The notes beneath the pieces are model-generated. The model made no database searches. It saw only the letters and a program-made list of their open reading frames with translations, and was not told the DNA's origin. Source: Myxococcus dinghuensis (GTDB lineage: Bacteria > Myxococcota > Myxococcia > Myxococcales > Myxococcaceae). From it: a stretch of 64,000 nucleotides of DNA. The position numbers were made by a program, and so were the translations under genes. Of this stretch, positions 9,000-29,640 are shown piece after piece (position 1 is the stretch's first letter; every line of letters starts with the position of its first letter). The DNA lies in the NCBI RefSeq assembly GCF_024198235.1, contig NZ_JAKCFB010000002.1, positions 434,001 through 498,000 of the forward strand, given 5' to 3'.

Positions 9000-10598
9000 T
9001 CACGCTTCGTCGACGACGAACTGCTCCTGTCGGGCGATGCCCAGCTTCTTCATCCGGCTCTGCAGCGTGGAGGGCTTCAGGCCCAGCAGCGCCGCGGCGC
9101 CGCCCGGCCCGTAGACGCGGCCCCGCGTGAGCGTCAGAACCCGGAGGATGTGCTCGCGCTGCACGGCCGCCAGCGTCAGCACCGCGCCGGGCTTCGACGC
9201 GGCGTCGGCGGGCAGCGCGGGCAGCTCCGTGGCCGCCGTCGCCACCGCCGCGCCCCGCGTCGGCAGGTCGAAGGTGGTGGGGCCCAGCTCCGGTCCCGGG
9301 GTCAGGATGGTGGCGCGCTCCAGGGCGTTGGCCAGTTCGCGCAGGTTGCCGGGCCAGTCATACCCCTCCAGCCTCGCCAACCCTGCGGGCGTCACCCGCA
9401 TGCCGCGACGCCCCGTGCGCTGGGCCTGCTCCGACAGGAGGAAGGCGCACAGCTGCGGCAGGTCCTCGCGCCGCTCGCGCAGGGGCGGCAGCTTCAGCGG
9501 GAAGACGCTGAGCCGGTAGTAGAGGTCCTCGCGGAAGCGCTTCTCCGAGATGGCCTTCTCCAGGTCGACGTGTGTCGCCGCGAGGATGCGCACGTCCGAG
9601 CGCACCGTGCGGTCGCTCCCCACCGGCTCGAAGGCCTTCTCCTGGAGCGCGCGCAGGAGCTTCGCCTGGAGCTCGACGGGCAGCTCGCCCACCTCGTCGA
9701 GCAGCAGCGTGCCCCCGTTGGCCATCTGGAAGCGGCCCGCGCGGTCCTTGGTCGCGCCCGTGAAGGCGCCCTTCACGTGGCCGAACAGCTCGCTCTCCAG
9801 CAGCCCCGCCGGAATCGCCGCGCAGTTGAGCGTGACGAACGGCTGGTCCGCGCGCGCGCTCCAGCGGTGGATGGCGCGCGCCAGCCGCTCCTTGCCCGTG
9901 CCCGTCTCGCCGGTGATGAGCACGGGCGTGTCCGTCTCCGCCACCTGCTTCGCGCGCCGCGCCAGGTCCCGCATCACCGGACTCAGGGACGCCGCGAGCA
10001 CCCCCTCCGAGTCACCGCCCAACTGCGACTCCAGCAGCTTCGCGTGCTCGTGGTCCTGGCGATGCAGCCGCTCGAACGTGGCGCGCTGCTCGGCGGCCTG
10101 GAGCGCCGTGGCCAGCATCTGCCCGTACACCTCCACCAGGTCCACCACCGGCTGCGGATACGTCTCGCACTCCGCGCGGTCCAGCGTCAGCACGCCATAG
10201 CTGCGCTCACCCGCGCACAGCGGCACCACCATGCACGCGTGACCCGGGGGCAGGTCGAGCACGCCGTCGAAGGGGTCTCCATCACCGTGCGAGTGGTCCT
10301 CCTCCGTGAAGGCCCGCGCGCGCCGCGTCTCCAGCGCCTGGCGCAGGGACGGGAACTCCGACAGCGGCAGCGCGTGGTGGCGCACCTTCGCGTTCGCCAA
10401 CGGCCCCCGCGCCGCCACCGACACCAGCTTGCCGTCCCGCAGCAGGAACAACGTCGCCAGGTCGAAGCGCACCACCCGCGTCAACCAGTCGAGCCCCCGC
10501 CGCAGCAGCTCGTCCACGGAGTCTTCCGTGGCGGCCAGCTCGACGAGGTCCCGACCATCCTTCGCCCCCTCGGAAGGGCCTGACAATTCATCCGACAT
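9000..10598 (-). CDS. Sigma-54-dependent activator with NorR-like GAF domain
   Basis: A 532-residue enhancer-binding protein. Residues of about 20-175 form a GAF domain in which every iron ligand known from NO sensor NorR appears conserved: Arg73, Asp108 and Asp111 (GDPFDG), His120 and Cys122 (GHAC) and Asp140 (LTLD). The AAA+ domain follows with Walker A GETGTGKE at 230 and the sigma-54 contact loop GAFTGA at 277. The C-terminal helix-turn-helix (GAAALLGLKPSTLQSRMKKLGI) resembles FhlA rather than NorR. An in-frame GTG at 10622 lies inside a conserved dyad, so the ATG at 10598 is preferred. It probably senses nitric oxide or related stress and activates sigma-54 promoters; the paired dyad upstream of ahpC is its likely target. 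Confidence 0.88.
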   Translation of the reverse strand: MSDELSGPSEGAKDGRDLVELAATEDSVDELLRRGLDWLTRVVRFDLATLFLLRDGKLVSVAARGPLANAKVRHHALPLSEFPSLRQALETRRARAFTEEDHSHGDGDPFDGVLDLPPGHACMVVPLCAGERSYGVLTLDRAECETYPQPVVDLVEVYGQMLATALQAAEQRATFERLHRQDHEHAKLLESQLGGDSEGVLAASLSPVMRDLARRAKQVAETDTPVLITGETGTGKERLARAIHRWSARADQPFVTLNCAAIPAGLLESELFGHVKGAFTGATKDRAGRFQMANGGTLLLDEVGELPVELQAKLLRALQEKAFEPVGSDRTVRSDVRILAATHVDLEKAISEKRFREDLYYRLSVFPLKLPPLRERREDLPQLCAFLLSEQAQRTGRRGMRVTPAGLARLEGYDWPGNLRELANALERATILTPGPELGPTTFDLPTRGAAVATAATELPALPADAASKPGAVLTLAAVQREHILRVLTLTRGRVYGPGGAAALLGLKPSTLQSRMKKLGIARQEQFVVDEA

Positions 10599-10607: not shown

Positions 10608-10613
10608 ATAATA
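10608..10613 (-). promoter_or_regulatory. Possible -10 element of the NorR-like gene
   Basis: On the minus strand TATTAT lies ten bases before the preferred ATG, so the message would be nearly leaderless. The matching -35 region (around 10631-10636) falls inside the first conserved dyad, which would let a bound regulator compete with RNA polymerase. The -35 hexamer itself is poor, so this is tentative. Confidence 0.35.
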
Positions 10614-10617
10614 GCGT

Positions 10618-10656
10618 TCCACCGAAATTGCAGTGGCCTGCCCACCGAGATTTCGT
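10618..10656. promoter_or_regulatory. Paired dyad, copy 1 (predicted activator-binding site)
   Basis: Two imperfect dyads lie with centres about 23 bp apart. The first, within TCCACCGAAATTGCAGTGGC, pairs at 7 of 9 positions (CCAC...GTGG). The second contains CACCGAGATTTCGT. The same 20-base and 14-base strings recur at 27747-27786 upstream of ahpC, with only the 5-6 base spacer differing. The halves CGAAAT and ATTTCG resemble the half-site of the E. coli FhlA target as I recall it, fitting the FhlA-like helix-turn-helix of the adjacent gene. Position next to the start codon suggests autoregulation, possibly negative. Confidence 0.75.
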
Positions 10657-10784
10657 GGTCCCCGGCGAAACGAGCCCCCTGGCCCGCCTCTGGCGTCACA
10701 ACCCCTTGAAATCTCGAGGAAACCCGAGCACCGCCCCGGCAGCGGCCCAGCGCCCGGTGAGCAGGCGGCCGGGCCCCTCCGGTG

Positions 10785-13568: not shown

Positions 13569-13590
13569 GCGGCGAGGAGCGACTCCCCAT

Positions 13591-16308
13591 ATGGTCAGGT
13601 CGTTCTCCCGGATGAGCGCGCGGCGACTCCTGTTCCTCCTCGTCACCCTCGGCGGACTGGCGGCCGTGACGACCGGGGCGGTCCACCTCGGCGCCCGGCG
13701 CGCGCTGCGCCTGGACGCGCGACGAGCCCAGGAGCAGCTCCTGCTCTGCGCGGACGCGCTCCAGGGCGCCATCGACCGCTACCGGATGTTGCCCTCGGTC
13801 CTCGCGCTGGACCCCGCGCTCCGCGCGGCGTTGTCGGGAACGCTCGATGCGCCCCAGCGCGCCCTGCTCAACCAGAAGCTGGAGGAGGTGAACGGGGTGA
13901 CCCACTCCTCCACGCTCACCCTCCTGGACCGGGACGGGGTCGCCGTCGCGGCGAGCAACTGGCGGAGCGCGGGCAGCAACCTCGGGAGGAACTACGCGTT
14001 CCGCCCCTACTTCCGCCAGGCGCTCGACACCGGCGAGGGGCGATTCTACGGCGTGGGTGTCACGACGAGCGAACCCGGCTACTTCCTCTCCCAGGCCGTC
14101 CGCGACGACTCGGGCGTGCTGCTGGGCGTGGTCGTCATCAAGGTGGACCTGAGCCCGCTCGAGCGCGAGTGGTCGCGCAACCGCGACGTCGTCCTGCTGT
14201 CCGACCGCGACGACGTGGTGCTCCTGGCCAGCCATCCGGCATGGCGCTATCGGGCGCTGTCTCCGCTCTCCAGCGCCGCTCGCGCGCGGCTGCGCGAGAG
14301 CCGGAAGTACGCGGGGACCGAGCTGACGCCGCTGCCCTGGCGAGAGGTGGAGGCACTGGGAGGAGACGGAGTGCTCGTCTCCGCGCGGCCGGAGGCCTCC
14401 GCCCCCGCGAGGACGTATCTCTGGCGGTCCATGCCACTGGAGAGCGGGGAATGGACGCTGCATCTGCTCCGGGATGGCGAGCCCGACCCGGTGGCGGCGG
14501 GGCTCGCGGGCCTGGCCGCGGGTGGCGCGTGGGTGGCCACCGTCTTCCTGGCCCTGTTCGTGCGCGGCCAGAGACGGCTCTCCCGGTTGAGAGAGCGCAG
14601 CCGCAGGGAGCTCGAGCAGCTCGTGGAGCAACACGCGCTGGCGCTGCGCACGACCCAGGACGGGCGCTTGCAACTCGCCTGGGAGACCGCGACCGGGCGC
14701 GAGGACAGCCTCGAGCACCTGCCCCAGGGCGTCAGCGTCGTCGACGCGGACCTCCGGCTGGTGGCGTGGAACCGCCGCTACGTGGAGCTGTTCCGCTTCC
14801 CTCCGGAGCTGATGCGGGTGGGGCGGCCCATCGAGGACCTGTTCCGCTACAACGCCCGCCGGGGCTGGCTGGGGCCGGGGGATGCCGAGGAGGCCATCCA
14901 GCGCCGGCTGGACCACCTCCGGGCCGGGACGCCGCACATGCACGAACGGGAAGGGGCGGATGGTCTCGTCCTGGAGATACGCGGCAATCCCCTCCCGAAC
15001 GGTGGGTTCGTCACCAGCTACACCGACATCACGAGCTACCGGAACGCCGCCCGTGAGCTGCGGAGCCTGGCCACCACGCTCGAGCGACGGGTCGAGCAAC
15101 GCACACACGAGCTCCGCGACGCGACCGCCGAGGCCCAGCGTGCCAATCGCGCCAGGAGCCGGTTCGTCGCGGCGGCGGTCCACGACCTGCTCCAACCCCT
15201 CAATGCGGCGCGGATGTTCGCGTCCGCGCTGCGGGAGTCGTTCCGACGCCCGTCGCTCCCCGGAGGACGGCCCCAGGGCGAGCCCGCCCTGCTCGACGAC
15301 ATCGAGGAGGCGCTCACGGCCCAGGACGCGATCCTCAACGGGTTGCTGGACATCTCCCACCTCGAGTCCGGCACGTTCGAGGTGAAACGGCGTGACGTCC
15401 CACTGGGGCCCCTGTTCGAGTCGCTCGCGCGCGAGCTGGGCGTCCTCGCGAAGGCGCGCGGGCTCGAGCTGTGCATGGTTCCGTCGCGGGTGGTCGTGAA
15501 CACCGACGAGCACCTGCTCCGCCGCGTGCTCCGGAACTTCCTGTCGAACGCGCTCCGCTACACCCCCCACGGCCGGGTCCTCCTGTGCTGCCGCCGTGAG
15601 GGCGCCGACGTGCGCCTGGAGGTCCGGGACAGTGGCCCCGGCATCCCCGAAGCGCAGCACGCCGCCATCTTCGAGGAGTTCCGAAGGCTCGAGGGGGCTG
15701 GCGCCCGCGAACGGGGGACGGGGCTCGGCCTCGCAATCGTCGAGCGCATCTCCCGGCTGCTGGGGCATCGGCTCGCGCTCCGCTCCGCGCCCGGGCGAGG
15801 CAGCGTCTTCTCGGTCGTGGTGCCCCGGGGCGACGCATCACGTGTCGCCGCCCCCGAGCCTCCCCCGGACGAAGGACAGGGCTCGCTGCTGCGCGGATGT
15901 CACATCTGGTGTCTCGACGATGACCCCCGCGTGCGCGAGGCCACGCGGACGCTGCTGCAATCCTGGGAGTGCCGGGTCGTCGTGGTGGGCGGCGAGGAGG
16001 AGGCGGCCCGGCTCGCGAGCGCCCTCGACGTCCCGGAGCTCCTGCTGCTCGACTACCAGCTCTCTCCCCGCACCGGCCCCGAGTGCCTCCCGGCGTTGTT
16101 CGAGCGTTGGGGACGCGCGGTGCCCGTCATCGTCGTGTCCGCCGAACGCGACCCGAAGCTGCGTGAGCGCGTCCGAGCCTCGGGCTGGGGTTTCCTGGCG
16201 AAGCCCATCCGCCCCGCGGCGCTGCGAGCGCTCGTCACCCAGGTCATCACTCGGGAGGGACATCCACTCCATCCGGTTCCAGTTGGGAATCGGGTTGGAG
16301 GGACCTGA
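13591..16308 (+). CDS. Hybrid histidine kinase with DctB-like periplasmic sensor
   Basis: 905 residues. Two membrane helices (about 12-30 and 300-325) flank a periplasmic double-PAS sensor that contains GRNYAFRPYFRQAL, close to the signature of DctB dicarboxylate sensors. A cytoplasmic PAS domain (about 373-480) and a coiled coil follow. The kinase core has its phospho-acceptor near residue 531 in VHDLLQPLNAARMF, the form seen in NahK-type kinases. The ATPase domain has NFLSNALRYTP and GTGLGLAIVERI. A C-terminal receiver carries a likely Asp near 820 in LLLLDYQL. The start has GAGGAG upstream. The 3' end overlaps the tail of the convergent LuxR-type regulator gene by 62 bp. It probably senses C4-dicarboxylates and controls dctA and the porin. 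Confidence 0.85.
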   Translation: MVRSFSRMSARRLLFLLVTLGGLAAVTTGAVHLGARRALRLDARRAQEQLLLCADALQGAIDRYRMLPSVLALDPALRAALSGTLDAPQRALLNQKLEEVNGVTHSSTLTLLDRDGVAVAASNWRSAGSNLGRNYAFRPYFRQALDTGEGRFYGVGVTTSEPGYFLSQAVRDDSGVLLGVVVIKVDLSPLEREWSRNRDVVLLSDRDDVVLLASHPAWRYRALSPLSSAARARLRESRKYAGTELTPLPWREVEALGGDGVLVSARPEASAPARTYLWRSMPLESGEWTLHLLRDGEPDPVAAGLAGLAAGGAWVATVFLALFVRGQRRLSRLRERSRRELEQLVEQHALALRTTQDGRLQLAWETATGREDSLEHLPQGVSVVDADLRLVAWNRRYVELFRFPPELMRVGRPIEDLFRYNARRGWLGPGDAEEAIQRRLDHLRAGTPHMHEREGADGLVLEIRGNPLPNGGFVTSYTDITSYRNAARELRSLATTLERRVEQRTHELRDATAEAQRANRARSRFVAAAVHDLLQPLNAARMFASALRESFRRPSLPGGRPQGEPALLDDIEEALTAQDAILNGLLDISHLESGTFEVKRRDVPLGPLFESLARELGVLAKARGLELCMVPSRVVVNTDEHLLRRVLRNFLSNALRYTPHGRVLLCCRREGADVRLEVRDSGPGIPEAQHAAIFEEFRRLEGAGARERGTGLGLAIVERISRLLGHRLALRSAPGRGSVFSVVVPRGDASRVAAPEPPPDEGQGSLLRGCHIWCLDDDPRVREATRTLLQSWECRVVVVGGEEEAARLASALDVPELLLLDYQLSPRTGPECLPALFERWGRAVPVIVVSAERDPKLRERVRASGWGFLAKPIRPAALRALVTQVITREGHPLHPVPVGNRVGGT

Positions 16309-16906
16309 CGATGACGGCCGCCTGGGTGCGGCTGTCGCACTCGAGCTTGCGGAGGATCGCCGTCACGTGGACCTTGACGGTGTTCTCGGCGAGGCCCAGC
16401 TCGGTCGCGATCTGCTTGTTGAGCAGCCCGTCCGCGAGGCACATCAGCACGCGCACCTGTTGCGGCGTCAACTGGGCGAGCTTCGTCGCCAGGCGCGCGT
16501 CCTCCGCGCTCTTCTCCGCCGTCAGGGCTGGGAACCAGGTGCCGCCCGCCAGGACCGCGCGGATGGCCTCCAGCAGTTGCTGCACCGGCGCCGCCTTGGG
16601 GATGAAGCCCGCGGCTCCGAACTGCTGGGCGCGGCGGATCGTCCGCGGATGGTCGTTCGAGGAGATGACGATGACCGGGATGTCGGACCACTCCCCCCGC
16701 AGGGACACCAGGGAGGAGAACCCACGCGCCCCCGGCATGTGCAGGTCCAGGAGGACCAGCTCGATGTCGGCGTGCTGCATGAGCGCCTCCTCCAGCGTGC
16801 GGAAGCTCGACGCCTCGAGCGGCGGGTCGTCTCCGAAAATCTCCCCCAGGGCATGTCGCACGGCGGCACGGAACAGCGGGTGGTCGTCGGCGATCAAGAC
16901 TCTCAT
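16247..16906 (-). CDS. LuxR/NarL-type response regulator
   Basis: A 219-residue regulator. The receiver domain spans about 1-120, with acidic pair DD at 7-8, phospho-acceptor Asp54 (VLLDLHMPG) and the conserved Lys in FIPKAAP. The NarL/FixJ-type helix-turn-helix spans about 150-205 (LTPQQVRVLMCLADGLLNKQIA, recognition helix in ENTVKVHVTAILRKL). The start at ATG 16906 follows GTGGAGGTCCCC and removes a non-conserved extension of the open frame. Convergent overlap with the hybrid kinase gene, and the habit of NahK-type kinases to pair with NarL-type regulators, suggest that the two form a phosphorelay controlling dicarboxylate uptake. Confidence 0.88.
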   Translation of the reverse strand: MRVLIADDHPLFRAAVRHALGEIFGDDPPLEASSFRTLEEALMQHADIELVLLDLHMPGARGFSSLVSLRGEWSDIPVIVISSNDHPRTIRRAQQFGAAGFIPKAAPVQQLLEAIRAVLAGGTWFPALTAEKSAEDARLATKLAQLTPQQVRVLMCLADGLLNKQIATELGLAENTVKVHVTAILRKLECDSRTQAAVIVRSLQPDSQLEPDGVDVPPE

Positions 16907-17085
16907 GGGGACCTCCACGCGACGTTCGGCGGGTACATTCTCTAGCAGACTCGGGCCAGGGGCCGTCGCCCCCGAGGCGCCCTCGAGGAAGCGGCCGAGC
17001 GACGTGAATCCCGGGTAGACTTCGACCTTCGCGCGCAACGGGTGGTTGGCGCATCGGTCGCGACGCCCAGGAGCCCCTCCACGAC

Positions 17086-18846
17086 ATGTCAACGGCACGC
17101 TACTTCGACTGGCCCTGGGGCTCGGTGGAGGTCGACCCTTCGACCCAGGTCCTCGAACTCGAAGTGGCCCAGGAGGAGGCCTTCTACGCCATGGTCGGAA
17201 GGCGTGACCTCGAGAGGGTTCCGGTCAACCCCGCGGACCCCTCCATGGGGGCGGTCTACGCCATCCCCGCGAGCATCGGTCCGCGGCTGTATGCGCGGCT
17301 CTCGGAGGTCTCGAACCACGCCCCCATCATGTGGGCGCCGGCCCAGGCCTTCGCCGTCAAGGCCCGGGCCTTCGATGACGGGCTCCTCGCGACGGTGGCG
17401 AACCTCGTCCAGGGCGGGACGCCCCGCTTGCCGGGGAAGCGCGGGCTCGTCGAGGACCTGTGGCAAGCGCTGAGGGCCCGTTGGCCCCAGGAGTCCTCGA
17501 GCGGACTCCGCGAGACGTTGTCCTTCCTCCAGGCCGCGCTGTCGATGACGGGGCATCACGAGGAGTCGAGCCGCACGCTGAGCCAGCACGCGAAGCGCTG
17601 GCGCCAGGACTTCGAGGCGGACGCCTCCCGGTCGACCCCCACGGGTGTCCATGCCTGGACCGACGCGGCCCGAGCCCTGTTCAAGCAGGACCGCCTCCTC
17701 CAGGAGGAACTCGCCCCGGAGTCCGCGGAGCTGCTCGCGTGGGCGCTGGGGGAGGACCCTTCGAGGCGGGCCCTCTACCAGCGGCACCTCGCGTTCATCG
17801 CGCGGTTGACCAACCCCTCGTCGAAGCCCGCGGTCCACGAGGTGGGCGCGAAGCGCTGCGTCCTGCCGCCCTCGGATTCGCACGCGGGACGGCTCGTGCA
17901 GGCGCTCCTCGGAGAAGTGCCCCCGCCCCTCGAGTCCGAGGTCATCGAGGAGGTCCTCCAGCGGATCCGCGACGGACGGCTCGACACCACCCCCGGGCCT
18001 GACTCCGGGCTGCACGACCACCAGCTCCACACGCTCGCGCCGCTGCTGTTCCCCGAGCGAACGCCCGAGTCCGAGCGGCTGGTCGTCGGCCCGAGGTATC
18101 GCGCAGAACTGGAGGCGCAGTTCCGAGGCTTCCTCGTCCAACCCCGGCAGCCCCAGCTCAAGCCGGTCGAGGTCCCAGCCCACCAGGAGCGGGGGCGGGA
18201 AGCACAGGTCTCCATCACCGTCCCGCCCCGCCTCACCCTCGAGCCGCTCGCGGAGCACTATCGGCGGCGCGCGGACACCTACCGGTTCCTTCGACACATG
18301 CTCGACGAGTTCCTCGGCGCGGACCGCCTGAACCAGGAGCGCCGCACCCTGGTCGAGGGCACCTCGCACGAACCGTTGTTCGACGAGCTGGTCTGGATGG
18401 AGCAGCTCTTCCGCGGGGCGCATGCCATCGTCCGGCGAGAGCTCGGCTGCGCTCCCATTCCCGACGCGGACGTGCCCGCGGCCATGCTCACGCGGAAGTG
18501 GCTGCACGCCTGGCGGGACGACGTGGACCTCGGGACGGATACCCGCCGCGTGGTGCCCCTGGCCTTCGACCAGGCGCGTGAGCGGACCCGGGTGGTGGCG
18601 ATGATGGGGTTCCTCTCCACCAGCGTGGAGGCCCGCTTCCTCCAGCCGCCCCAGGTCCGCGCCTTCTCCGGGAAGGGTCACCCCCGCGCCGCCCCCACGC
18701 CGTCGTACCCCTCCATCAAGTACCAGACCCTCTGTCCCGTCGCGGAGGAGGTCTACGTGCGCCGGGTCCCCGAACCAGACGAGTTCCGCAGGCTCTGCGA
18801 CACGTACGTCTCGCGCGAGGCCATCCTCCGCGCCCTGCAGGAGTGA
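17086..18846 (+). CDS. Unrecognised 586-residue cytoplasmic protein
   Basis: I do not recognise this protein. It starts at ATG 17086, has no signal peptide or membrane helix, and is rich in charged residues and Leu, giving a largely helical impression. Visible landmarks are an N-terminal beta-like region (RYFDWPWGSVEVDPSTQVLE), a central helical part with many Trp, Arg and Glu, and a C-terminal region with LFDELVWMEQLFRGAHAIVRREL. Codon use matches its neighbours. The coding region is long and internally consistent, so it is a real gene. It sits between two regulatory pairs without clear operon membership; a strong inverted repeat follows its stop codon. Confidence 0.75.
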   Translation: MSTARYFDWPWGSVEVDPSTQVLELEVAQEEAFYAMVGRRDLERVPVNPADPSMGAVYAIPASIGPRLYARLSEVSNHAPIMWAPAQAFAVKARAFDDGLLATVANLVQGGTPRLPGKRGLVEDLWQALRARWPQESSSGLRETLSFLQAALSMTGHHEESSRTLSQHAKRWRQDFEADASRSTPTGVHAWTDAARALFKQDRLLQEELAPESAELLAWALGEDPSRRALYQRHLAFIARLTNPSSKPAVHEVGAKRCVLPPSDSHAGRLVQALLGEVPPPLESEVIEEVLQRIRDGRLDTTPGPDSGLHDHQLHTLAPLLFPERTPESERLVVGPRYRAELEAQFRGFLVQPRQPQLKPVEVPAHQERGREAQVSITVPPRLTLEPLAEHYRRRADTYRFLRHMLDEFLGADRLNQERRTLVEGTSHEPLFDELVWMEQLFRGAHAIVRRELGCAPIPDADVPAAMLTRKWLHAWRDDVDLGTDTRRVVPLAFDQARERTRVVAMMGFLSTSVEARFLQPPQVRAFSGKGHPRAAPTPSYPSIKYQTLCPVAEEVYVRRVPEPDEFRRLCDTYVSREAILRALQE

Positions 18847-18850
18847 ACCG

Positions 18851-18900
18851 GAGGAGCCCGTTCGCTGCACCCAGGGCCTGGTTGGCTGCATGGGCTCCTC
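18851..18900 (+). terminator. Hairpin after the 586-residue gene
   Basis: A perfect 9-bp inverted repeat (GAGGAGCCC and GGGCTCCTC) encloses 32 bases that contain a smaller CCAGG/CCTGG stem. It begins five bases after the stop codon and ends shortly before the LytS-like kinase gene. There is no T-run, so it is either a weak terminator or an mRNA structure in the kinase leader. Confidence 0.4.
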
Positions 18901-18933
18901 TCCACGAGGACGCGGGCGTAGACTCCCCGAGCC

Positions 18934-20124
18934 GTGGAATCCACCTCGTCCGCCGCGAGTCCCCTCCCCTCGACTTCCGCCCTGAGGCCACGGGTGGAGG
19001 TCTCCGCGTCGGCCCCGCACACGCTGCTCCGCCGCGCGCGGCAGTTGGGGCTGTTCCTCCTGGCCTACTCCGTCCCCGGCCTGCTCGCCGCCAGCCAGGC
19101 CTACTACTACGCGCAGGCCAAGGACCCCACGTACCCCTTCAGCCGGACGCTGCTGATGAACCTGCCGCCCTGGTGGTACTGGGCGCTGGCCACCCCCGTC
19201 GTCCTCGCGCTCGGTCAGCGGTTCCGCCTGGAGCGCGGGACCGTGCGTCACTCCCTCCGGGTACACGTCCCCGCCGCCATCGGGCTGATGCTCCCCCACC
19301 TCCTCCTGCTGGTGACCGTCAACCGAATCACGGGGGAGAAGTGGTTCGTCGAGAACTCGCTGGGCTTCATGCTGCCCCTGCTGGTGAGCAAGTACGGCAT
19401 CACGGACGTCCTCATCTACGGAGGCATCCTCGCCGTCGGCACGGCCCTGGAGTACCACCGCCGCTATCTCGAGGGGGCGCTGACCCAGTCCCAGCTCGAG
19501 ACGCGCCTGGCCCACGCGCAGCTCGACTCGCTGCGCGCCCAGCTCCATCCGCACTTCCTCTTCAACACGCTCAACGCCATCTCCGTCCTGGTGCGCAAGC
19601 AGGACACCGCCGGCTCCATCCGCATGCTCACCGGCGTCAGCGAGCTGTTGCGCATGGCCCTCCACACCACCAACCGCCAGCAGGTCCCGCTGCACGAGGA
19701 CCTCGACTTCCTGGAGCGCTACCTCGACATCGAGCAGACCCGCTTCCAGGACCGGCTCCAGGTGGTGCGCACCATCGACCCGGCGACGCTCGGCGCGCTC
19801 GTGCCCAGCCTCATCCTCCAGCCGTTGGTGGAGAACGCCATCAAGCACGGCATCGCCACGCGCTCGGGCGCCGGACGCGTGGAGCTGCGCACCTCGCGAG
19901 AGGCCGACCGGCTGGTGCTGGAGGTGCTCGACGACGGCCCCGGGCTCGCGCCCGACTGGGACAGCCGGGGAGACGGCATCGGCGTGGCCAACGTGCGCGC
20001 GCGCCTGCATCAACTCCATGGCTCGCGCCACGTCTTCACCCTGGAGAACCGCGACGGCGGCGGCGTGTGCGCGCGCCTGGAGCTGCCGTTCCAGCTCGCG
20101 ACGTCCGAGGCCCCCGCGCCATGA
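18934..20124 (+). CDS. LytS-type sensor histidine kinase
   Basis: A 396-residue membrane kinase. About five hydrophobic helices occupy residues 30-165 (for example GLFLLAYSVPGLLAAS and IGLMLPHLLLLVTV). The His_kinase domain of the LytS/YehU class follows, with phospho-acceptor near residue 207 in QLHPHFLFNTLNAI. The ATPase domain has LILQPLVENAIKHG and DDGPGLAP. It starts at GTG 18934. Its stop overlaps the start of the LytTR regulator gene (ATGA), so the pair is translationally coupled. Typical targets of such systems are envelope, efflux or autolysis genes; the efflux operon downstream is a candidate, but this is inference. Confidence 0.88.
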   Translation: MESTSSAASPLPSTSALRPRVEVSASAPHTLLRRARQLGLFLLAYSVPGLLAASQAYYYAQAKDPTYPFSRTLLMNLPPWWYWALATPVVLALGQRFRLERGTVRHSLRVHVPAAIGLMLPHLLLLVTVNRITGEKWFVENSLGFMLPLLVSKYGITDVLIYGGILAVGTALEYHRRYLEGALTQSQLETRLAHAQLDSLRAQLHPHFLFNTLNAISVLVRKQDTAGSIRMLTGVSELLRMALHTTNRQQVPLHEDLDFLERYLDIEQTRFQDRLQVVRTIDPATLGALVPSLILQPLVENAIKHGIATRSGAGRVELRTSREADRLVLEVLDDGPGLAPDWDSRGDGIGVANVRARLHQLHGSRHVFTLENRDGGGVCARLELPFQLATSEAPAP

Positions 20125-20927
20125 ACGCGACCGCGAGCATCCGCACCCTCATCGTCGACGACGAGCCCCTGGCTCGCGAGGGGCTGCGCCTCTTGCTCGC
20201 CACGGACCCCGACGTGCGCGTGGTGGGCGAGGCCGGCAATGGCCCCGAGGCCATTCGCCTCATCCGCGAGCAGCGGCCGGACCTGGTCCTGCTCGACGTG
20301 CAGATGCCCGAGTTCAACGGGTTCGAGGTGCTCGCCCGCTTGACCCCCGGCGAGGTCCCCGCGGTCATCTTCGTCACCGCGTACGACAGCTACGCCCTGC
20401 GCGCCTTCGACATCCACGCGCTCGACTACCTGCTCAAGCCCTTCCGCGACGACCGCTTCCAGGACGCCGTGGGCCGCGCCAAGGCGCAGATTCGCATGGC
20501 GCGCATGTCCGACCTCAGTCAGCGGCTGATGTCCGTCATCTCCACCTATGGCGAGCGCGACGTCACGCCCCCTCCCACGCCCGCCGCCGCGTCGCCGGAG
20601 CCCTGGGCGCACCGGCTGGCCATCCGCGACACCGGTCGCGTGGTGTTCCTGGAGGTGGACGAAATCGAATACATCGAGGCCGCCGACTACTACGTGCAGA
20701 TTCACGCGGGCGGTAAGGCCTATCTCCACCGTGAGACGATGCAGCACCTGGAGACGCGGCTGGACCCCGAGCGCTTCATGCGCATCCACCGCTCGGCCAT
20801 CGTCAACGCGCGCCGCATCCGCGAGCTGCGCAGCGAGGGACGCAGGGACCTCATCGTGGTGCTGACCAGTGGCGTCGAGCTGCGCGTGGCGCGCAGCCAC
20901 CGCGAGAAGTTCCAGCACCTGGCCTGA
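20121..20927 (+). CDS. LytTR-family response regulator
   Basis: A 268-residue regulator with an N-terminal receiver (DDE at 13-15, phospho-acceptor Asp59 in VLLDVQMPEFNG, Thr and Lys in FVTAYD and YLLKPF) and a C-terminal LytTR DNA-binding domain (about 160-268, with IEYIEAADYYVQIHAGG and FMRIHRSAIVNARRI). LytTR proteins bind short direct repeats. Start ATG 20121 overlaps the kinase stop. The linker around residues 140-160 is proline/alanine-rich. Confidence 0.9.
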   Translation: MNATASIRTLIVDDEPLAREGLRLLLATDPDVRVVGEAGNGPEAIRLIREQRPDLVLLDVQMPEFNGFEVLARLTPGEVPAVIFVTAYDSYALRAFDIHALDYLLKPFRDDRFQDAVGRAKAQIRMARMSDLSQRLMSVISTYGERDVTPPPTPAAASPEPWAHRLAIRDTGRVVFLEVDEIEYIEAADYYVQIHAGGKAYLHRETMQHLETRLDPERFMRIHRSAIVNARRIRELRSEGRRDLIVVLTSGVELRVARSHREKFQHLA

Positions 20928-21060
20928 CGCCGCGCGCCCGTTCGCCGGCCCACAGGCCCCGTTCGCCGCACGCCGGGCCCCGCCGACAGAAGACTCCGCC
21001 GCCGGAGCACGTGGATGGGCACTGTTCCTCCCGTACCCCGCCCCCCCGGAGGCACCTCCC

Positions 21061-21801
21061 ATGCCGCGAAAGTCCCTCGTCCTGTCGGCCCTGGCCCTCG
21101 GGCTGACGTTCACCCCCACCGTGGCCACGGCGGGTGAAGGCGCCGCTTGCACCCAGGGCCAGCCGACCCTCCAGAACTTGAAGGCCCTGGGCGGCCGGGA
21201 GCGGCTCCAGGCCGCGAAGACCTTCCAGCTCACGGCGGTCCTCCGTGAGGGCGACCAGGTGACGACGATGACCCTCCGCCGCGCGAGGCCCAACCTCCTG
21301 CGCACCGAGACGGACGGCAACGGCACCCACGTCAGCAAGGTGTTCGACGGCCGCCAGGGCTGGCTGGAAGAAGGAGCCGCCGCGCCTCGGCGGCTGGACG
21401 CGGAGACGAACGCCATCGTGGCCGACACCGCCACCTTCGACGATGCCCTGCTGGACCCCAAGGCCCGGGGCGTCACCGTGACGATGGACGGCGTGGAGGC
21501 GGTGGACGGCGCGCCCGCCTTCAAGCGGGTCCTCACGCGGGGCGCCGACACGGAGGTCCGCCTCATCGACCAGAAGACCTTCCTGGAGGTGAGCCGCAGC
21601 TACGCCGGCACCTATCAGGGCAAGGCGTTCCGGAAGACGGTGGCCTTCTTCGACTACCGCCCCGTGGACGGCATCCTGGTGAGCCACCGCGCGCGATACG
21701 CGAGCGACGACGGCGAGCAGGGCGAGAAGACCGTCCAGAGCGCCCGCTACGACGCGCCCATCGACGCGGCCACGTTCAAGCCGACGGCGCCGCGGAGCTG
21801 A
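21061..21801 (+). CDS. LolA/LppX-like periplasmic protein
   Basis: A 246-residue protein with a signal peptide (SLVLSALALGLTFTPTVATA) and a mature domain resembling the outer-membrane lipoprotein-sorting fold (LolA/RseB): it opens with a helix containing LKALGGRERLQAAKTFQL and continues with many antiparallel strands (LLRTETDGNGTHVSKVFDG, GWLEEGA). Such an open barrel usually binds acyl chains or unfolded lipoprotein. It starts at ATG 21061 after GGAGGCACCTCCC. It precedes the efflux operon and may be co-expressed; two hairpins without T-runs lie between them. The call is by fold resemblance, so the exact role is uncertain. Confidence 0.6.
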   Translation: MPRKSLVLSALALGLTFTPTVATAGEGAACTQGQPTLQNLKALGGRERLQAAKTFQLTAVLREGDQVTTMTLRRARPNLLRTETDGNGTHVSKVFDGRQGWLEEGAAAPRRLDAETNAIVADTATFDDALLDPKARGVTVTMDGVEAVDGAPAFKRVLTRGADTEVRLIDQKTFLEVSRSYAGTYQGKAFRKTVAFFDYRPVDGILVSHRARYASDDGEQGEKTVQSARYDAPIDAATFKPTAPRS

Positions 21802-21817
21802 CCTCCTGCCTCACCGC

Positions 21818-21839
21818 GCCCCCTCCTCCACGAGGGGGC
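21818..21839 (+). terminator. Weak hairpin between LolA-like gene and efflux operon
   Basis: A perfect 8-bp stem (GCCCCCTC/GAGGGGGC) with a 6-base loop, followed by a second GGGTCG/CGACCC stem. No T-run is present, so it may attenuate rather than terminate. Confidence 0.35.
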
Positions 21840-21910
21840 TCGAGCACCCGCCCGGGTCGAAGCCCCGACCCGTGGGCGAGGTGCGCCCTTCCTCCCATCA
21901 CGTCCGGCGC

Positions 21911-23284
21911 ATGGCTCCTCCGTCCCTCCTCCTCTTCGCGCTCGCCACCTCCCCGGTCCAGGCCGAGCCGCCCCCCACCGACACGCCCACCGTCACCCTC
22001 CAGCCGCGGGTGGAAGACGCGATGCTCACGCCCGTCCCGCCCGCCGCTCGGAACGTGAAGCAATGGGAGGAGGCCGTCGCGCTGATGCGTGAGCGCTCCA
22101 CGGACCTGCGCGGCGCCGAGGCGGGCGTGGAGCGCGCGACGGGGCGCTGGCGACAGGCACTCGCGGCGCTGCTGCCCACGGCGCGTGTCCGGGCCGGCCT
22201 GGGCCAGGACCTCCTCCATCCCTCGGTCCCCACGGGCGTGCTCGTCGGCGCCGTGGGAGATGGGCGCACCGTCACCACTCCCACGGGCACGCTCACCGCG
22301 ACGCTGACCCAAACCGTGGTGGACCTGGGGGCCTGGAGGGGCGTGGCCTCGGCGCGAGAGGCGGAGACGGGCGCGGTGGCCAGCCTCCAGGACACCCGGC
22401 GTCGCCTCACGCTGGGACTGGCACGCGCGCTGGTCGCCACCGTGGCCTCCGAGCGCGCCGCTGAAATCAACCGCGTGGGGCTGAGGCGCGCGCTGGAGCG
22501 CGCGGCCCTCGCCCGGCGCGCCTTCGAGCTGGGCGCCGGTCACCAACTGGACGTGGTGCGCGTCGAACAGGACGTCGCCGTCGCGCGTGGCATCCTCGTC
22601 GCCGGGGATGAACAACTGCGCCGGACGCGCGAGGCGCTGGGCCTCGCGCTCGGATACGGCGAGCCCTTCGGCGTCACCCCGGCCTTCGACCTGCGCGGCC
22701 TCGTGGAGCGGACGCGCGCGGACTGCGCGCCCCTGGACGATGTCGACGCACGCGCCGACCTGGTCTCCGCGCGCGCCCAGGTGGCGTCCGCGCGCGAGAG
22801 CCGGGACCAGGCCAGCGCGGGCTACCTGCCCACGTTGGGTCTCGACAGCACCCTCTCTGGCCTCACCACGACCCCGGGCTTCGGCAGCTTCTCGACATGG
22901 AGCGTCGCCGCCGTGCTGTCCGTGCCCCTGTGGGAAGGCGGCGGGCGCGGCGGGCTGGTGCGCGAGCGCGCGGGCGTGGAGGCCCAGGCGGAGGCCACGC
23001 TGGAGAGCGCCCGTCGGGACGTCGCGCTGGAGGTGGCGCGAGCGCGTCGAAGCGTCGAGGTCGCGGAGACATTGACGAGGACCTCGGTGGAGTCGCGAGA
23101 CCTCGCCGAGCGCACCGACCGGCTCACCCGCCGCGCCTTCGAGGTGGGCCGTGGCACCAGCCTGGAGCTGGTGCAGAGCGGCGCGGCCCTTCGCCAGGCG
23201 GAGCTGGACCTGGTGCTGCGCGAATTCGAGCTCGTCCAGGCGCGCCTGGATGCCTTCCTCACGCAAGCCCGATGCGACGGGTGA
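21911..23284 (+). CDS. TolC-family outer-membrane efflux protein
   Basis: A 457-residue protein with a signal peptide (PPSLLLFALATSPVQAE) and the two-fold repeated helical-barrel plan of OEP/TolC proteins: long coiled helices rich in Ala, Arg and Glu (AEAGVERATGRWRQALAALLP) separated by strand pairs, and a second half with YLPTLGLDSTL and RRAFEVGRGTSLELVQSGA. It forms the outer-membrane exit duct of the tripartite pump whose other parts follow. Start ATG 21911 is chosen because it opens directly into the signal peptide; the frame is open a little further upstream. It overlaps or abuts the membrane-fusion gene. Confidence 0.88.
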   Translation: MAPPSLLLFALATSPVQAEPPPTDTPTVTLQPRVEDAMLTPVPPAARNVKQWEEAVALMRERSTDLRGAEAGVERATGRWRQALAALLPTARVRAGLGQDLLHPSVPTGVLVGAVGDGRTVTTPTGTLTATLTQTVVDLGAWRGVASAREAETGAVASLQDTRRRLTLGLARALVATVASERAAEINRVGLRRALERAALARRAFELGAGHQLDVVRVEQDVAVARGILVAGDEQLRRTREALGLALGYGEPFGVTPAFDLRGLVERTRADCAPLDDVDARADLVSARAQVASARESRDQASAGYLPTLGLDSTLSGLTTTPGFGSFSTWSVAAVLSVPLWEGGGRGGLVRERAGVEAQAEATLESARRDVALEVARARRSVEVAETLTRTSVESRDLAERTDRLTRRAFEVGRGTSLELVQSGAALRQAELDLVLREFELVQARLDAFLTQARCDG

Positions 23285-23298
23285 AGCGAGTACGCCCC

Positions 23299-24438
23299 AT
23301 GGAGAAGCGGATGAAGCGGTTGTGGAGTCTGGTGATGGTGGCGGCGGTGACCGGCTGCTCGCGGACGGCGACGCCGCCAGCGGCGCCCGAGCCCCGCGAG
23401 GTCGAGGTCGTGTCGTTGGAGCCGCGCGAGGTGCGCGACACGGGCGAGTACCTGGGCAGCCTGCTGTCCCGGCAGAGCGTCACGCTGCTGCCCCAGGTGG
23501 ACGGCTACGTGCGCCGCATCCACGTGCGGCCCGGACAACACGTGGATGCGGGCGCGCCGCTGGTCGAGGTGGACGCGCGCGCGGAGACCGCGGCGCTCGA
23601 CGGCGCCCAGGCGGAGCTGAACACCGCTCGCATCGACCTGGAGCTGGCCCGCCGCACGCTGGCGCGCACCCAGGCACTGCACCAGGAGGGCCTCGCCAGC
23701 GCGCAGGAGCTGGAGAGCGCGCGGGCACGGCAGGAGTCCGCCGAGGCCTCGTCGCGCGCGTCGTCCGCGCAGGTGGCGCAGCGACAGGTGCGGCTCCAGT
23801 TCCACGTCGTGCGCGCGCCCTTCGCGGGCACCGTCGGGGACGTGCTGGTGCGCGTGGGGGACTTCGTCGGCGCATCGACGGTGCTGACCAGCGTGGCCCA
23901 GGCGGAGGTGCTCGAGGTGAGCGTGTCGGTGCCCGCGCATCGCGCGCGCGCCATGAAGCCCGACACGGTGATGGAGGTGCTCGACGCGCGAGGGACGGTG
24001 GTGCTCGCCGCTCACGCCTTCTTCGTCGCGCCCCAGGCCGACCCCCGCACCCAGTTGGTGGAGGTGAAGGCCGCCTTCCGCAACACGCCGGGCCTGCGCC
24101 CCAACGAGATGGTGCGGACCCGCCTCGTCTACGCGGTGCGGGACGCGCTGCAGCTTCCGGCGGTGGCGGTGGTGCGCCAGAACGGCCAGCCCTTCGCCCT
24201 GGTCATCCGCGACAAGGACGGCCAGGCCCAGGTTCAGCGACAGCCCGTCACCCTGGGTGCGCTGGGGGACAGGACCTACGTCGTGGAGCAAGGGCTGTCG
24301 CCAGGAGACAAGGTGGCCGTGTCCTCCCTGCACGCGCTGCGCGACGGCACGCCCGTGAAGGTGAAGGCCGCGCCCTACGCCCAGGTGACGCCCGCCCCGA
24401 CCTCCCTCGTGAACACCCCACTGAAGAACAGCCCCTGA
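23299..24438 (+). CDS. RND efflux periplasmic adaptor (membrane-fusion) lipoprotein
   Basis: A 379-residue AcrA-like adaptor. The N-terminus is a lipoprotein signal with lipobox VTGC. The lipoyl/barrel-sandwich parts are QVDGYVRRIHVRPGQHVDAGAPLVEVD and VVRAPFAGTVGDVLVRVGDFV; between them lies a helical hairpin rich in Ala and Glu (about 85-160). A beta-barrel and membrane-proximal domain complete it. Possible starts are ATG 23272, GTG 23281, ATG 23299 and ATG 23311; the two last sit best against the signal peptide, and the 23299 start is given. It bridges the TolC-like and RND proteins. Confidence 0.88.
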   Translation: MEKRMKRLWSLVMVAAVTGCSRTATPPAAPEPREVEVVSLEPREVRDTGEYLGSLLSRQSVTLLPQVDGYVRRIHVRPGQHVDAGAPLVEVDARAETAALDGAQAELNTARIDLELARRTLARTQALHQEGLASAQELESARARQESAEASSRASSAQVAQRQVRLQFHVVRAPFAGTVGDVLVRVGDFVGASTVLTSVAQAEVLEVSVSVPAHRARAMKPDTVMEVLDARGTVVLAAHAFFVAPQADPRTQLVEVKAAFRNTPGLRPNEMVRTRLVYAVRDALQLPAVAVVRQNGQPFALVIRDKDGQAQVQRQPVTLGALGDRTYVVEQGLSPGDKVAVSSLHALRDGTPVKVKAAPYAQVTPAPTSLVNTPLKNSP

Positions 24439-24458
24439 GCCGAGGCAGCAAGCGCCCC

Positions 24459-27599
<3,141 letters not shown>

Positions 27600-27746
27600 G
27601 CGGGTCCCTCCTCGGAAGCGTTCGCGACCGACCTGTCGGGTCGCCTGCCCGCCCGCCCCGGATGCATCCCCTCGGGCCTTCTCGTATCGTGCGCGCCCGC
27701 TCGTACGAGCAGGGTACGAGCGTCGCATCGCCGTCAATTGGCCGGC
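27600..27746. other. Intergenic region with a palindrome, between the RND and ahpC genes
   Basis: No coding potential is seen. A GCGACC/GGTCGC stem lies shortly after the RND stop and may assist termination, though without a T-run. A perfect 12-bp palindrome, GCTCGTACGAGC, lies at 27699-27710 and is followed by a further TACGAGC at 27715-27721, giving repeated half-sites that could be an operator. The paired dyad and sigma-54 promoter of ahpC follow immediately. Confidence 0.5.
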
Positions 27747-27786
27747 TCCACCGAAATTGCAGTGGCGGTCGGCACCGAGATTTCGT
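27747..27786 (+). promoter_or_regulatory. Paired dyad, copy 2 (predicted enhancer upstream of ahpC)
   Basis: A near copy of 10618-10656: the 20 bases TCCACCGAAATTGCAGTGGC and the 14 bases CACCGAGATTTCGT are identical, with a 6-base instead of 5-base spacer. It ends about 75 bp before the -24 element of the sigma-54 promoter and lies at roughly -100 to -140 relative to the predicted transcription start, the usual place for an enhancer-binding protein. Confidence 0.78.
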
Positions 27787-27860
27787 TATTCACCGTCCCG
27801 GCGGCACCGTCAGGTCGAGGGAACAGCATCAACCCCTCGGAATCACTTCAGTCGAGGTCC

Positions 27861-27876
27861 TGGCACGAGGCCTGCT
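27861..27876 (+). promoter_or_regulatory. Sigma-54 (-24/-12) promoter of ahpC-ahpD
   Basis: TGGCACGAGGCCTGCT matches the consensus TGGCACG-N4-TTGC(A/T) at all but one defined position, and the invariant GG and GC are ten bases apart as required. Transcription should start near 27886, giving a leader of about 65 bases before the ahpC ATG. Confidence 0.8.
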
Positions 27877-27949
27877 CTAGCAACTGGCAGAAGAACTTTC
27901 TCGAGGGACGGCGAGCAGCCATCCCCCCATCCCAAGGAGCTGTAACGAC

Positions 27950-28504
27950 ATGCTGACCGTTGGCGACAAGATCCCGAACTTCAAGGTCAAGGCCACCGTG
28001 AGCCTGGAGAAGGGCAAGGAGTTCCAGGAGATCACGAACGAGACCTTCAAGGGCAAGTGGCTGGTGCTGTTCGCCTGGCCGAAGGACTTCACCTTCATCT
28101 GCCCGACGGAGATCGCGGAGTTCGGCAAGAAGAACAAGGACTTTGCCGACCGTGACGCGCAGGTGCTGGGCCTGTCCACCGACAGCGAGTTCGTGCACCA
28201 CGCGTGGCGCACGCACCACCCGGACCTGAAGAACCTGCCCTTCCCGATGCTGGCGGACCTGAAGCACGAGCTGTGCAACGCGCTGGGCATCCTCCACAAG
28301 GAGGAGGGCGTGGCGCTGCGCGCGACGTTCATCGCGGACCCCGAGGGCATCATCCGCCACGTGACGGTGAACGACCTGTCCGTGGGCCGCAACGTCTCCG
28401 AGACCGTGCGCACCCTGGACGCGCTGCAGACGGACGAGCTGTGCCCCTGCAACTGGAACAAGGGCGAGGAGACCCTCACCCAGAAGCTGGCGAAGGCGGG
28501 GTAA
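27950..28504 (+). CDS. ahpC: Alkyl hydroperoxide reductase / peroxiredoxin AhpC
   Basis: A 184-residue typical 2-Cys peroxiredoxin. The peroxidatic Cys51 lies in FTFICPTE, and two C-terminal cysteines, Cys165 and Cys167 (CPCNW), match the resolving pair of the mycobacterial AhpC type, which is recycled by AhpD rather than AhpF. It reduces hydrogen peroxide, organic peroxides and, in known relatives, peroxynitrite in the cytoplasm. Start ATG 27950 follows AAGGAG at good spacing. It lies 6 bp upstream of ahpD and is driven by a predicted sigma-54 promoter with an upstream enhancer. Confidence 0.93.
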   Translation: MLTVGDKIPNFKVKATVSLEKGKEFQEITNETFKGKWLVLFAWPKDFTFICPTEIAEFGKKNKDFADRDAQVLGLSTDSEFVHHAWRTHHPDLKNLPFPMLADLKHELCNALGILHKEEGVALRATFIADPEGIIRHVTVNDLSVGRNVSETVRTLDALQTDELCPCNWNKGEETLTQKLAKAG

Positions 28505-28510
28505 CGCGTC

Positions 28511-29035
28511 ATGGCTTCGCTCGAAGTCGTCCGCTCGGAGCTGGCGGACGCCCACAAGGACACGCGCCTCAACCTCCAGGCCGTCCTGGAAGGTGGCAGC
28601 CTCACCCCGGAGCAGCGTTGGGGCGTGGCGGTGGCATCGGCCTTCGCCGTTCGTAACGAGCGGCTGAAGGAGGCGATGCTCGAGGAGGCGCGCAAGGCCC
28701 TCGCGAACCCCGAGCCCGTCATCGAGGATGCGCGCGCAGCGGCCTCGCTGATGGCGATGAACAACGTCTACTACCGCTTCCGGCACATGATCGGGAAGGA
28801 GTCCTACTCGACCAAGCGCGCCGGCCTGCGGATGAACAGACTCGCGCAGGTGCTGACCACCAAGGTGGACTTCGAGCTGGTCTGCCTCGCGGTCAGCGCC
28901 ATCAACGGCTGCGAGATGTGCATGCAGTCCCACGAGAAGGTCGTCCTCGACGGCGGCCTGTCGGAGGACCAGGTGCACGACGCGGTCCGTATCGCGGCGG
29001 TCGTCCACGCCGCGGCGGTGGGCCTGGAGTCCTAG
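28511..29035 (+). CDS. ahpD: Alkyl hydroperoxide reductase AhpD
   Basis: A 174-residue AhpD-family protein. The catalytic CxxC is Cys134-Cys137 in NGCEMCMQSHEK, with His141 and upstream Glu122 also conserved in the proton-relay positions known from AhpD. It transfers electrons to the oxidised AhpC in place of AhpF. The gene follows ahpC by six bases, clearly co-transcribed, and is followed by a strong intrinsic terminator. Confidence 0.93.
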   Translation: MASLEVVRSELADAHKDTRLNLQAVLEGGSLTPEQRWGVAVASAFAVRNERLKEAMLEEARKALANPEPVIEDARAAASLMAMNNVYYRFRHMIGKESYSTKRAGLRMNRLAQVLTTKVDFELVCLAVSAINGCEMCMQSHEKVVLDGGLSEDQVHDAVRIAAVVHAAAVGLES

Positions 29036-29071
29036 CGCTCCGGTTCCGCGAGTCACTCGCGAGACGTACCC

Positions 29072-29109
29072 GCGCCCCCTGGTGGAAACGCCAGGGGGCG
29101 CTCCTTTTT
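29072..29109 (+). terminator. Intrinsic terminator after ahpD
   Basis: A perfect 11-bp stem (GCGCCCCCTGG/CCAGGGGGCGC) with an 8-base loop, followed by TCCTTTTT. This ends the ahpCD transcript about 35 bases after the stop codon and separates it from dps. Confidence 0.9.
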
Positions 29110-29163
29110 CCAACGCCGCGCATCTGAAGTGGCGTGAAGAACGAAAGCGAAAGGAAGACCGCC

Positions 29164-29640
29164 ATGTACCGCAGCCCCAGCCCCCTCCCCGAGAAGACCC
29201 GCTCCGCCATCGTCGACTCGCTCAACGCGCGCCTGGCGGATGGCCTGGACCTGCACTCGCAAATCAAGGTGGCCCACTGGAACATCAAGGGCCCGCAGTT
29301 CGCCGCGCTCCACCCGCTGTTCGAGACCTTCGCGGTGAGCCTGGCCAACCACAACGACTCCATCGCCGAGCGCGCGGTGACGCTGGGCGGGAAGGCCTAC
29401 GGCACCAGCCGCCACGTGGGCAAGGCGAGCCGCCTGCCGGAGTACCCCCAGGAGACGACCCGGGACCTGGAGCACGTGAAGCTCCTGGCCGAGCGCATCG
29501 AGGTCTACCTGGAGGGCCTGCGCGACAGCCGCAGGCTGTTCGTCGAGGTGGACGACGCGGACTCCGAGGACCTGGCCACCGGCATCATCGTGGAGTTCGA
29601 GAAGCACGCCTGGTTCCTGCGCGCTTCGCTCGAGGGCTAG
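29164..29640 (+). CDS. dps: Dps/ferritin-like DNA-protection protein
   Basis: A 158-residue Dps-family protein. The ferroxidase region is seen in HSQIKVAHWNIKGPQFAALHPLFE and then AVSLANHNDSIAERAVTLGG, with the helical bundle following. Dps oxidises Fe(II) with peroxide and shields DNA. An in-frame GTG at 29134 would add ten residues, but ATG 29164 is preceded by AAAGGAAG at proper spacing. It is just downstream of ahpCD yet beyond a terminator, so it forms a separate unit in an oxidative-stress neighbourhood. Confidence 0.88.
   Translation: MYRSPSPLPEKTRSAIVDSLNARLADGLDLHSQIKVAHWNIKGPQFAALHPLFETFAVSLANHNDSIAERAVTLGGKAYGTSRHVGKASRLPEYPQETTRDLEHVKLLAERIEVYLEGLRDSRRLFVEVDDADSEDLATGIIVEFEKHAWFLRASLEG

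Follow-up and report, generated by a model that had tools for sequence, protein, structure and literature searches.

The window analysed here is a 64,000 nt stretch of a host genome of 10.4 Mb, and it carries two loci that share a pair of short dyads (Table 1). The first of these is the gene for a NorR-like sigma-54 activator, an enhancer-binding protein (bEBP), where Pfam recognises a GAF domain (GAF_3, 45 bits), a central AAA+ domain (Sigma54_activat, 239 bits) and a Fis-type HTH, the last with an HTH_8 score of 21.2 bits that is slightly below the cut-off of 22. The best NCBIfam match of the protein is the NorR model PRK05022, at 399.8 bits against a cut-off of 476. The second locus comprises ahpC and ahpD, whose products score 159 bits with TIGR03137 (cut-off 272) and 167.9 bits with TIGR00777 (cut-off 191.95), respectively, both below the cut-off. 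The hallmarks of a bEBP system are found by sequence match as well as by position, with a sigma-54 activation domain that includes the GAFTGA loop in the window protein, a -24/-12 element ahead of ahpC, an enhancer some 80-150 bp upstream of it and RpoN, for which there is one gene in the host genome. A consensus scan for a sigma-70 promoter of ahpC returns none in 27600-29200, and no LysR- or Fur-type regulator near ahpC is matched by tblastn in the 64 kb window (E <= 1e-5, with one LysR and one Fur control protein). The predicted terminator of ahpCD is one of three such sites in the stretch, against 1.1 expected. Downstream of it lies a Dps gene (29134-29640), and no dyad is seen ahead of that gene.

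Table 1. Location of the genes and predicted regulatory features; positions are those of the window except in the last row
Feature	Position	Strand	Basis or remark
NorR-like sigma-54 activator (bEBP), 532 aa: GAF, AAA+ with GAFTGA, Fis-type HTH	9000..10598	-	Pfam
Candidate -10 box TATTAT of the activator gene	10608..10613	-	ends 9 nt before the ATG at 10598
Dyad 1 of the activator's own promoter, core CACCGAAATTGCAGTG	10618..10637, core 10620-10635	+	conserved in genus
Dyad 2 of the activator's own promoter, CACCGAGATTTCGTGG	10643..10658	+	23 bp centre-to-centre from dyad 1
Predicted enhancer dyad 1 of ahpCD	27747..27766, core 27749-27764	+	centre ~117 bp upstream of the -12 GC
Predicted enhancer dyad 2 of ahpCD, CACCGAGATTTCGTTA	27773..27788	+	centre 24 bp from dyad 1
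Conserved block between enhancer and promoter, CAACCCCTCGGAATCA	27830..27845	+	by eye
Predicted sigma-54 (-24/-12) promoter of ahpCD, TGGCACGAGGCCTGCT	27861..27876	+	9/10 fixed positions in 54/57 activator genomes
ahpC, peroxiredoxin, 184 aa (M. xanthus MXAN_1564 type)	27950..28504	+	Pfam AhpC-TSA, 132 bits
ahpD, alkylhydroperoxidase, 174 aa	28511..29035	+	Pfam CMD
Predicted intrinsic terminator closing ahpCD, ahead of the Dps gene	29072..29101	+	13-pair stem and T run
Catalase gene and upstream tandem palindrome array, common to the divergent lysine 5,6-aminomutase gene	L207 2131-3831 (own genome C52)		

A preliminary description of this DNA had claimed that a paired dyad recurs at the two loci and that a -24/-12 element lies downstream of the second copy. 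Both claims are borne out. By direct string check the 20-mer TCCACCGAAATTGCAGTGGC occupies 10618-10637 and 27747-27766 on the + strand, and CACCGAGATTTCGT occupies 10643-10656 and 27773-27786 on the same strand, such that the pairs extend over 10618-10656 and 27747-27786 with spacers of 5 bases in the activator copy and 6 in the ahpC copy. Each of the two shared strings is a near-palindrome, and the element TGGCACGAGGCCTGCT follows the ahpC copy. When 81 bases around the first copy are used as query, the whole genome yields no match beyond the query itself and the copy at ahpC, the latter with an E of 4.9e-6. In the genome-wide motif search suggested in the preliminary description, CACCGARATTKC has four genomic occurrences at zero mismatch, all of them in the dyad places of the activator gene and ahpC; at one mismatch there are 57 more, making 61 in total against 24 for the reversed-pattern control. 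A scan of the host genome for single dyads returns 95 matches against 94 for its control, without overall excess, and thus only clustering is informative. The promoter element is likewise not rare alone, as TGGCACNNNNNTTGC with up to two mismatches has 51 matches in the window where 64 are expected, and the ahpC promoter is therefore convincing through its conserved position across species rather than through sequence alone. A near repeat of the promoter, TGTCACGAGGCCTGC at 10783, was considered as a second sigma-54 promoter and rejected, for it is the 3' end of a dctA-like gene and two-mismatch matches are at chance level in the window.

How the two loci relate to one another is apparent from the gene order in relatives. 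Activator orthologs, defined by E <= 1e-120, are present in 55 of the 117 genomes of the order set, all within the window's own family; two further genomes, found only by a separate search of the genus, bring the activator genomes to 57, of which 27 belong to the window's GTDB genus (which includes Pyxidicoccus) and 30 lie outside it. These genomes are related and the counts are not independent. At the E-value limits used, each of the 27 genus genomes has one ortholog of the activator and one of ahpC. Fourteen of them have the two genes divergent and 214-223 bp apart, with a single shared dyad pair, and in the other 13 they are separated by 440 bp to 104 kb (17,351 bp in the window genome). 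Of these separated cases 12 have a pair at each gene, the thirteenth (G021) having a degenerate pair on the ahpC side. Outside the genus, in the stretches fetched, ahpC is divergent from and adjacent to the activator gene in 29 of 30 genomes, and the one exception (G067) retains dyads and promoter at its distant ahpC. The same arrangement is found in 25 of 26 named loci, largely from the genomes of the 30-genome list and assigned to Myxococcus, Pyxidicoccus, Corallococcus, Citreicoccus, Archangium, Hyalangium, MAGs and one record labelled Comamonas; all 25 divergent loci have the dyads and a TGGCACG...TGCT element 82-89 bp ahead of ahpC. With its activator/ahpC locus of Myxococcus type, the record titled Comamonas sp. 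KCTC 72670 (L159) has probably been mislabelled. In the window the interval 10600-27750 is filled by about 17 kb of other genes, and with gaps of such varied length in 13 of the 27 genus genomes the interval looks tolerant of insertion once the enhancer has been duplicated.

What purpose might be served by the copy that remains at the activator gene? In 26 of the 27 genus genomes (G004 was not parsed) a TATTAT lies 9 or 10 nt before the activator ATG and at a fixed distance from dyad 1. Tyrosine in the activator genes is encoded by TAC 149 times and by TAT 26 times, a preference that makes it unlikely that TATTAT owes its conservation to a longer protein in which it would be coding. Were it the -10 box, dyad 1 would lie over the spacer and the -35 region, and repression would be expected. 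The suggestion of self-regulation is modified accordingly, in that the outcome is probably repression at a different, sigma-70-like promoter, not sigma-54 activation. An alternative is that the shared strings are a leftover of duplication from the time of gene separation and that one of the two copies has no function, for which the relaxed spacing of the activator-side pair (22-24 bp among the separated genomes) and the lack of a -24/-12 element beside it here may be cited; given that both pairs are retained in the separated genus genomes (strictly in 12 of 13) although their flanks have diverged, this is quite unlikely.

The arrangement ahead of ahpC is tightly constrained. The dyad pair is found in 56 of the 57 activator genomes, with G118 below the pair threshold, and the dyad centres lie 24 bp apart in 55 of these and 23 bp apart in G100, where the second dyad is weak. 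From dyad 1 to the -12 box the distance is 115-118 bp in 41 genomes and 126-127 bp in 14, the latter class being all 14 Corallococcus genomes of the set. The two classes differ by about one turn of the helix and nothing lies between them, as predicted for a looping enhancer that is held to one face of the DNA. The -24/-12 element scores 9 of 10 in 54 of the 57 activator genomes (G067 scored apart) and falls below this in G057 (8), G100 (6) and G118 (5), the G057 promoter being also atypical in position, at 162 bp before the ATG. In shuffled sequence a score of 9 is reached in 8 of 1120 cases and a score of at least 7 in 229 of 1120.

The contrast is with ahpC genes that have no such activator. 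As controls serve all 18 genomes of the order in which ahpC is present (E <= 1e-50) and an activator ortholog is absent, and the dyad pair is present in none of them, with one single weak half-motif match (G060); a strict -24/-12 element (score of at least 9) is also absent from all 18, one of them scoring 8 (G046). In its place other regulators are encountered. An OxyR-like LysR gene stands divergently beside ahpC in 7 of 9 controls from other families, and a Fur/PerR-like gene lies directly upstream of ahpC in 6 of 9 controls from the same family, such that one or the other adjoins ahpC in 13 of the 18 and neither does in 5; both are worded as "like" because their model scores are below the curated cut-offs. 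A Dps gene is found beside the Fur/PerR-like gene and ahpC in 5 of the 9 activator-less genomes of the same family.

A further connection between activator and promoter is provided by their joint loss. On the basis of one sequence per genome (n=57) and seven further named loci, the sigma-54 loop, as GAFTGA, GSFTGA (in G004 and G005) or GAYTGA, is kept in 55 of the 57 orthologs and in all seven further loci. It is lost in G118, which has GAFAGA, and in G100, where it is deleted, and these are exactly the two genomes without the -24/-12 element at ahpC, RpoN still being present in both. To the eye, dyad-like palindromes persist in the two genomes, which suggests a regulator that still binds and no longer addresses sigma-54; in these distant relatives a sigma-54 activator has perhaps turned into an ordinary regulator. 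Of all orthologs examined, theirs have also diverged the furthest (65 and 63% identity), and with such divergence the loss of the promoter element might be general decay; equally, the two co-losses may be a single event. In both relatives (L121 and L122 with L177 and L178) the activator gene still adjoins ahpC. Taken with the synteny, the footprinting, the spacing and the controls, the co-loss of GAFTGA and -24/-12 gives strong support to the earlier proposal that the activator drives ahpC-ahpD through sigma-54.

It may be asked whether the dyads are instead bound by another regulator, with the activator gene merely one of its targets, since dyads alone do not identify the binding protein and a Fis-type HTH is not readable into a site. 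Such an arrangement is very improbable. Strict tandem dyads are nearly confined to activator genomes, occurring in 34 of 55 of these against 2 of 62 activator-less ones (Fisher 8.8e-13, ignoring relatedness), the gene next to the dyads of ahpC is that of the activator in 43 of 57 genomes (14/27 in the genus and 29/30 outside), and the co-loss ties the activator protein itself to the ahpC promoter.

The search for further targets of the activator leads to catalase. Elsewhere in the host genome one cluster of related dyads is found, with a catalase gene (PF00199) on one side and a divergent gene for lysine 5,6-aminomutase on the other, and the dyad nearest the latter, CACCGCATTATCGGTT, is nearly invariant in the genus. 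The catalase is present in 27/27 genus genomes at E <= 1e-200, and in all 27 it is preceded by three to five palindromes of the form CACCG-N6-CGGTG (at least 9 of 10 arm positions). Relative to the -12 GC these lie near 93 and 73 bp in every genome, near 145 bp in 25 and near 117 bp in 25, G004 and G005 being below threshold at the last place, so that the 117/93 bp geometry is that of ahpC in 25 of 27. A [CT]GGCA[CT]...TGCT element then follows the dyads in every genus genome, with a -12 half that is usually GTGCT or CTGCT, deviating from TTGCT, and a score of 7-8 out of 10, a level to which shuffled sequence also rises. As the -24/-12 element of catalase is weak when taken alone, it is on the dyads and their geometry that the link is built. 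The block at 27830-27845 (CAACCCCT-GGAATCA) resembles one ahead of catalase (L207 3729-3750, minus strand, TCAACCCCTTGAATTCATTGAG), and this block, common to ahpC and catalase and placed between enhancer and promoter, is possibly the site of a bending protein.

Strict tandem dyads match 36 of the 117 genomes and leave 21 of the 55 activator genomes without a match, the window genome among them because each of its dyads carries a mismatch. Of the 30 strict tandem loci kept, 25 are at catalase, including all nine Corallococcus loci matched (of 14 Corallococcus genomes), and one (L248) is at activator/ahpC. L247 has strict tandem dyads without a clear target, and L235 and L236, from activator-less genomes, are probably chance matches; there is one further strict match in G026 (C2:997384). 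At L237 1501-1540, in G057, tandem dyads are followed by TGGCACGCGGCTCGC beside a ferrochelatase-like ORF, without a clear target, and the locus is a possible further one. Of 50 matches of the pair pattern in the 27 genus genomes, 39 belong to the activator/ahpC locus; the other 11 are scattered and differ in composition, and by their look we take them to be coding sequence. The best reading of these sites is a predicted sigma-54 peroxide regulon of ahpCD and catalase. Alternatively, ahpCD could be the only target, with catalase belonging to a paralogous bEBP that has a similar site. Paralogs do abound (92-137 candidate stretches of activator-type protein per genome in a loose first search), and the catalase dyads are more symmetric and more numerous than the ahpC pair. 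Against this, the two promoters have the 24 bp spacing in common together with the 117/93 bp geometry, and no bEBP is evident by eye among ORFs of at least 200 aa around catalase (L207 1800-6500), where the divergent neighbour is the lysine 5,6-aminomutase gene; a separate regulator for catalase is consequently unlikely.

What signal would such an activator perceive? The question turns on the GAF domain and its likeness to that of NorR. The NorR positions H111, C113, D96 and D131 are kept in 57/57 orthologs and D99 in 56/57, all five being non-haem iron positions of NorR. At the position of NorR R75 the orthologs have S (50), Q (4), T (2) or M (1), at that of R81 they have E in 56 and Q in one, and at that of Y98 all 57 have F. 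The GAF domain has additional conserved residues, H75, H102 and C144 in 57/57 and C128 in 55/57, which could serve metal or thiol chemistry. Local alignments agree with a predicted helix at 83-94 that holds S84 and E90; the predicted structure is of moderate quality (mean pLDDT 66.9), with residues 94-120 (D108, D111 and H120 among them) below 50, and nearly all of the best 50 Foldseek matches listed are bacteriophytochromes and other GAF-containing proteins. For E. coli NorR, PMC2941729 names D99, H111 and C113 in the iron site with R75 and Y98, and describes R75 as the iron ligand postulated to be displaced by NO. According to the same source R81 is needed to keep NorR off, through interdomain repression, and the R81E protein is more active than one that lacks the GAF domain.

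The loss of R75 and R81 makes NO sensing doubtful and peroxide sensing plausible, and with ahpCD and catalase as predicted targets a peroxide signal would be the simplest reading. The description of the protein as an NO-type sensor thus stands as regards the five NorR iron positions, and fails as regards R75 and R81, which are replaced, and the score below the NorR cut-off. AhpCD reduces peroxynitrite, and a true NO sensor like NorR, with AhpCD and catalase answering nitrosative stress, would account for NorR as the best NCBIfam match, for the five conserved positions and for a divergent gene layout that is the same as that of norR-norVW. The residue postulated to be displaced by NO (PMC2941729) is however S, Q, T or M here, 56 of 57 orthologs have E in place of R81, the score is below the cut-off, and the targets seen are peroxide enzymes without an NO reductase among them, which leaves this explanation somewhat doubtful. 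A tentative proposal, to which we give a little less than even weight, is that an iron GAF of the NorR type has been rebuilt as a peroxide sensor, with loss of R75 and R81 and gain of His and Cys residues, and has taken over ahpCD and catalase from OxyR/PerR in Myxococcaceae. If true, there would be a third kind of sensor for hydrogen peroxide, and the response to peroxide would here depend on sigma-54.

Very probably, to judge from the sequences, the activator is the dedicated enhancer-binding protein of peroxide defence in Myxococcaceae, with ahpCD under its control through sigma-54, catalase as a related target and a divergent pair as the ancestral state. From the sites, promoter, synteny, spacing and co-loss read in the sequence we infer binding, activation, autorepression, iron and signal as follows. 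A mononuclear iron centre like that of NorR is probably present in the GAF domain and would be hit by a reactive oxygen or nitrogen species, the first guess being peroxide and the second NO, whereupon the AAA+ domain would be released. The activator would bind two tandem palindromes of 16 bp (CACCGA-N4-TCGGTG), which lie about 93 and 117 bp ahead of the -12 box, and from there open the sigma-54 promoter at 27861, with ahpC-ahpD transcribed to the terminator at 29072. Related sites of the same geometry before catalase, elsewhere in the genome, would make of this a small regulon for peroxide defence under sigma-54. Binding to the pair at the activator gene, which would cover spacer and -35 upstream of TATTAT, probably represses synthesis of the activator. 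The ancestral state was probably that of divergent neighbours with one shared dyad pair, from which the window genome would differ by the roughly 17 kb between activator and ahpCD and by a separate pair at each gene.

Among known systems the closest is NorR/norVW of E. coli, where a GAF-AAA+-HTH activator is likewise divergent from its sigma-54 target genes, with several enhancer sites between them. The differences are in the inferred targets, ahpCD and catalase rather than norVW, in the site CACCGA-N4-TCGGTG and in the features of the GAF domain and model score given above. Hydrogen peroxide is sensed via OxyR or PerR in most bacteria, according to PMC8115020, and with such control the present system has in common one dedicated regulator adjoining ahpC and a catalase in the same regulon (as in the PerR regulon of that source). 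It is unlike it in having a sigma-54 activator with predicted enhancer sites and not a LysR activator or a Fur-type repressor. In Myxococcus and its close relatives the main peroxide-destroying genes appear to be under a sigma-54, NO-sensor-like activator instead of OxyR/PerR. Sigma-54 promoters are silent until their activator spends ATP, and with such a switch these predatory soil bacteria would keep their response to peroxide under tight control. The natural series of OxyR-like, Fur/PerR-like and sigma-54 regulators offers a means to study regulator replacement at one conserved gene.

None of the open-literature matches listed reports that ahpC is controlled through sigma-54 by an activator of this kind, and none links MXAN_1565 with MXAN_1564 or either of them with sigma-54 peroxide control; the MXAN locus tags have no match in PMC9765219. 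In PMC8570273, PMC7643160 and PMC4158809, MXAN_1565 is an NtrC-like activator and MXAN_1564 is AhpC of Myxococcus xanthus. The order of the genes in strain AM003 of that species (L157, with a gap of 487 bp) makes these two the probable orthologs of the activator and ahpC described here. MXAN_1565 would in this way gain a candidate function, target genes, a binding site and a testable signal, and a well-studied model bacterium would gain a different and easily tested type of oxidative-stress control.
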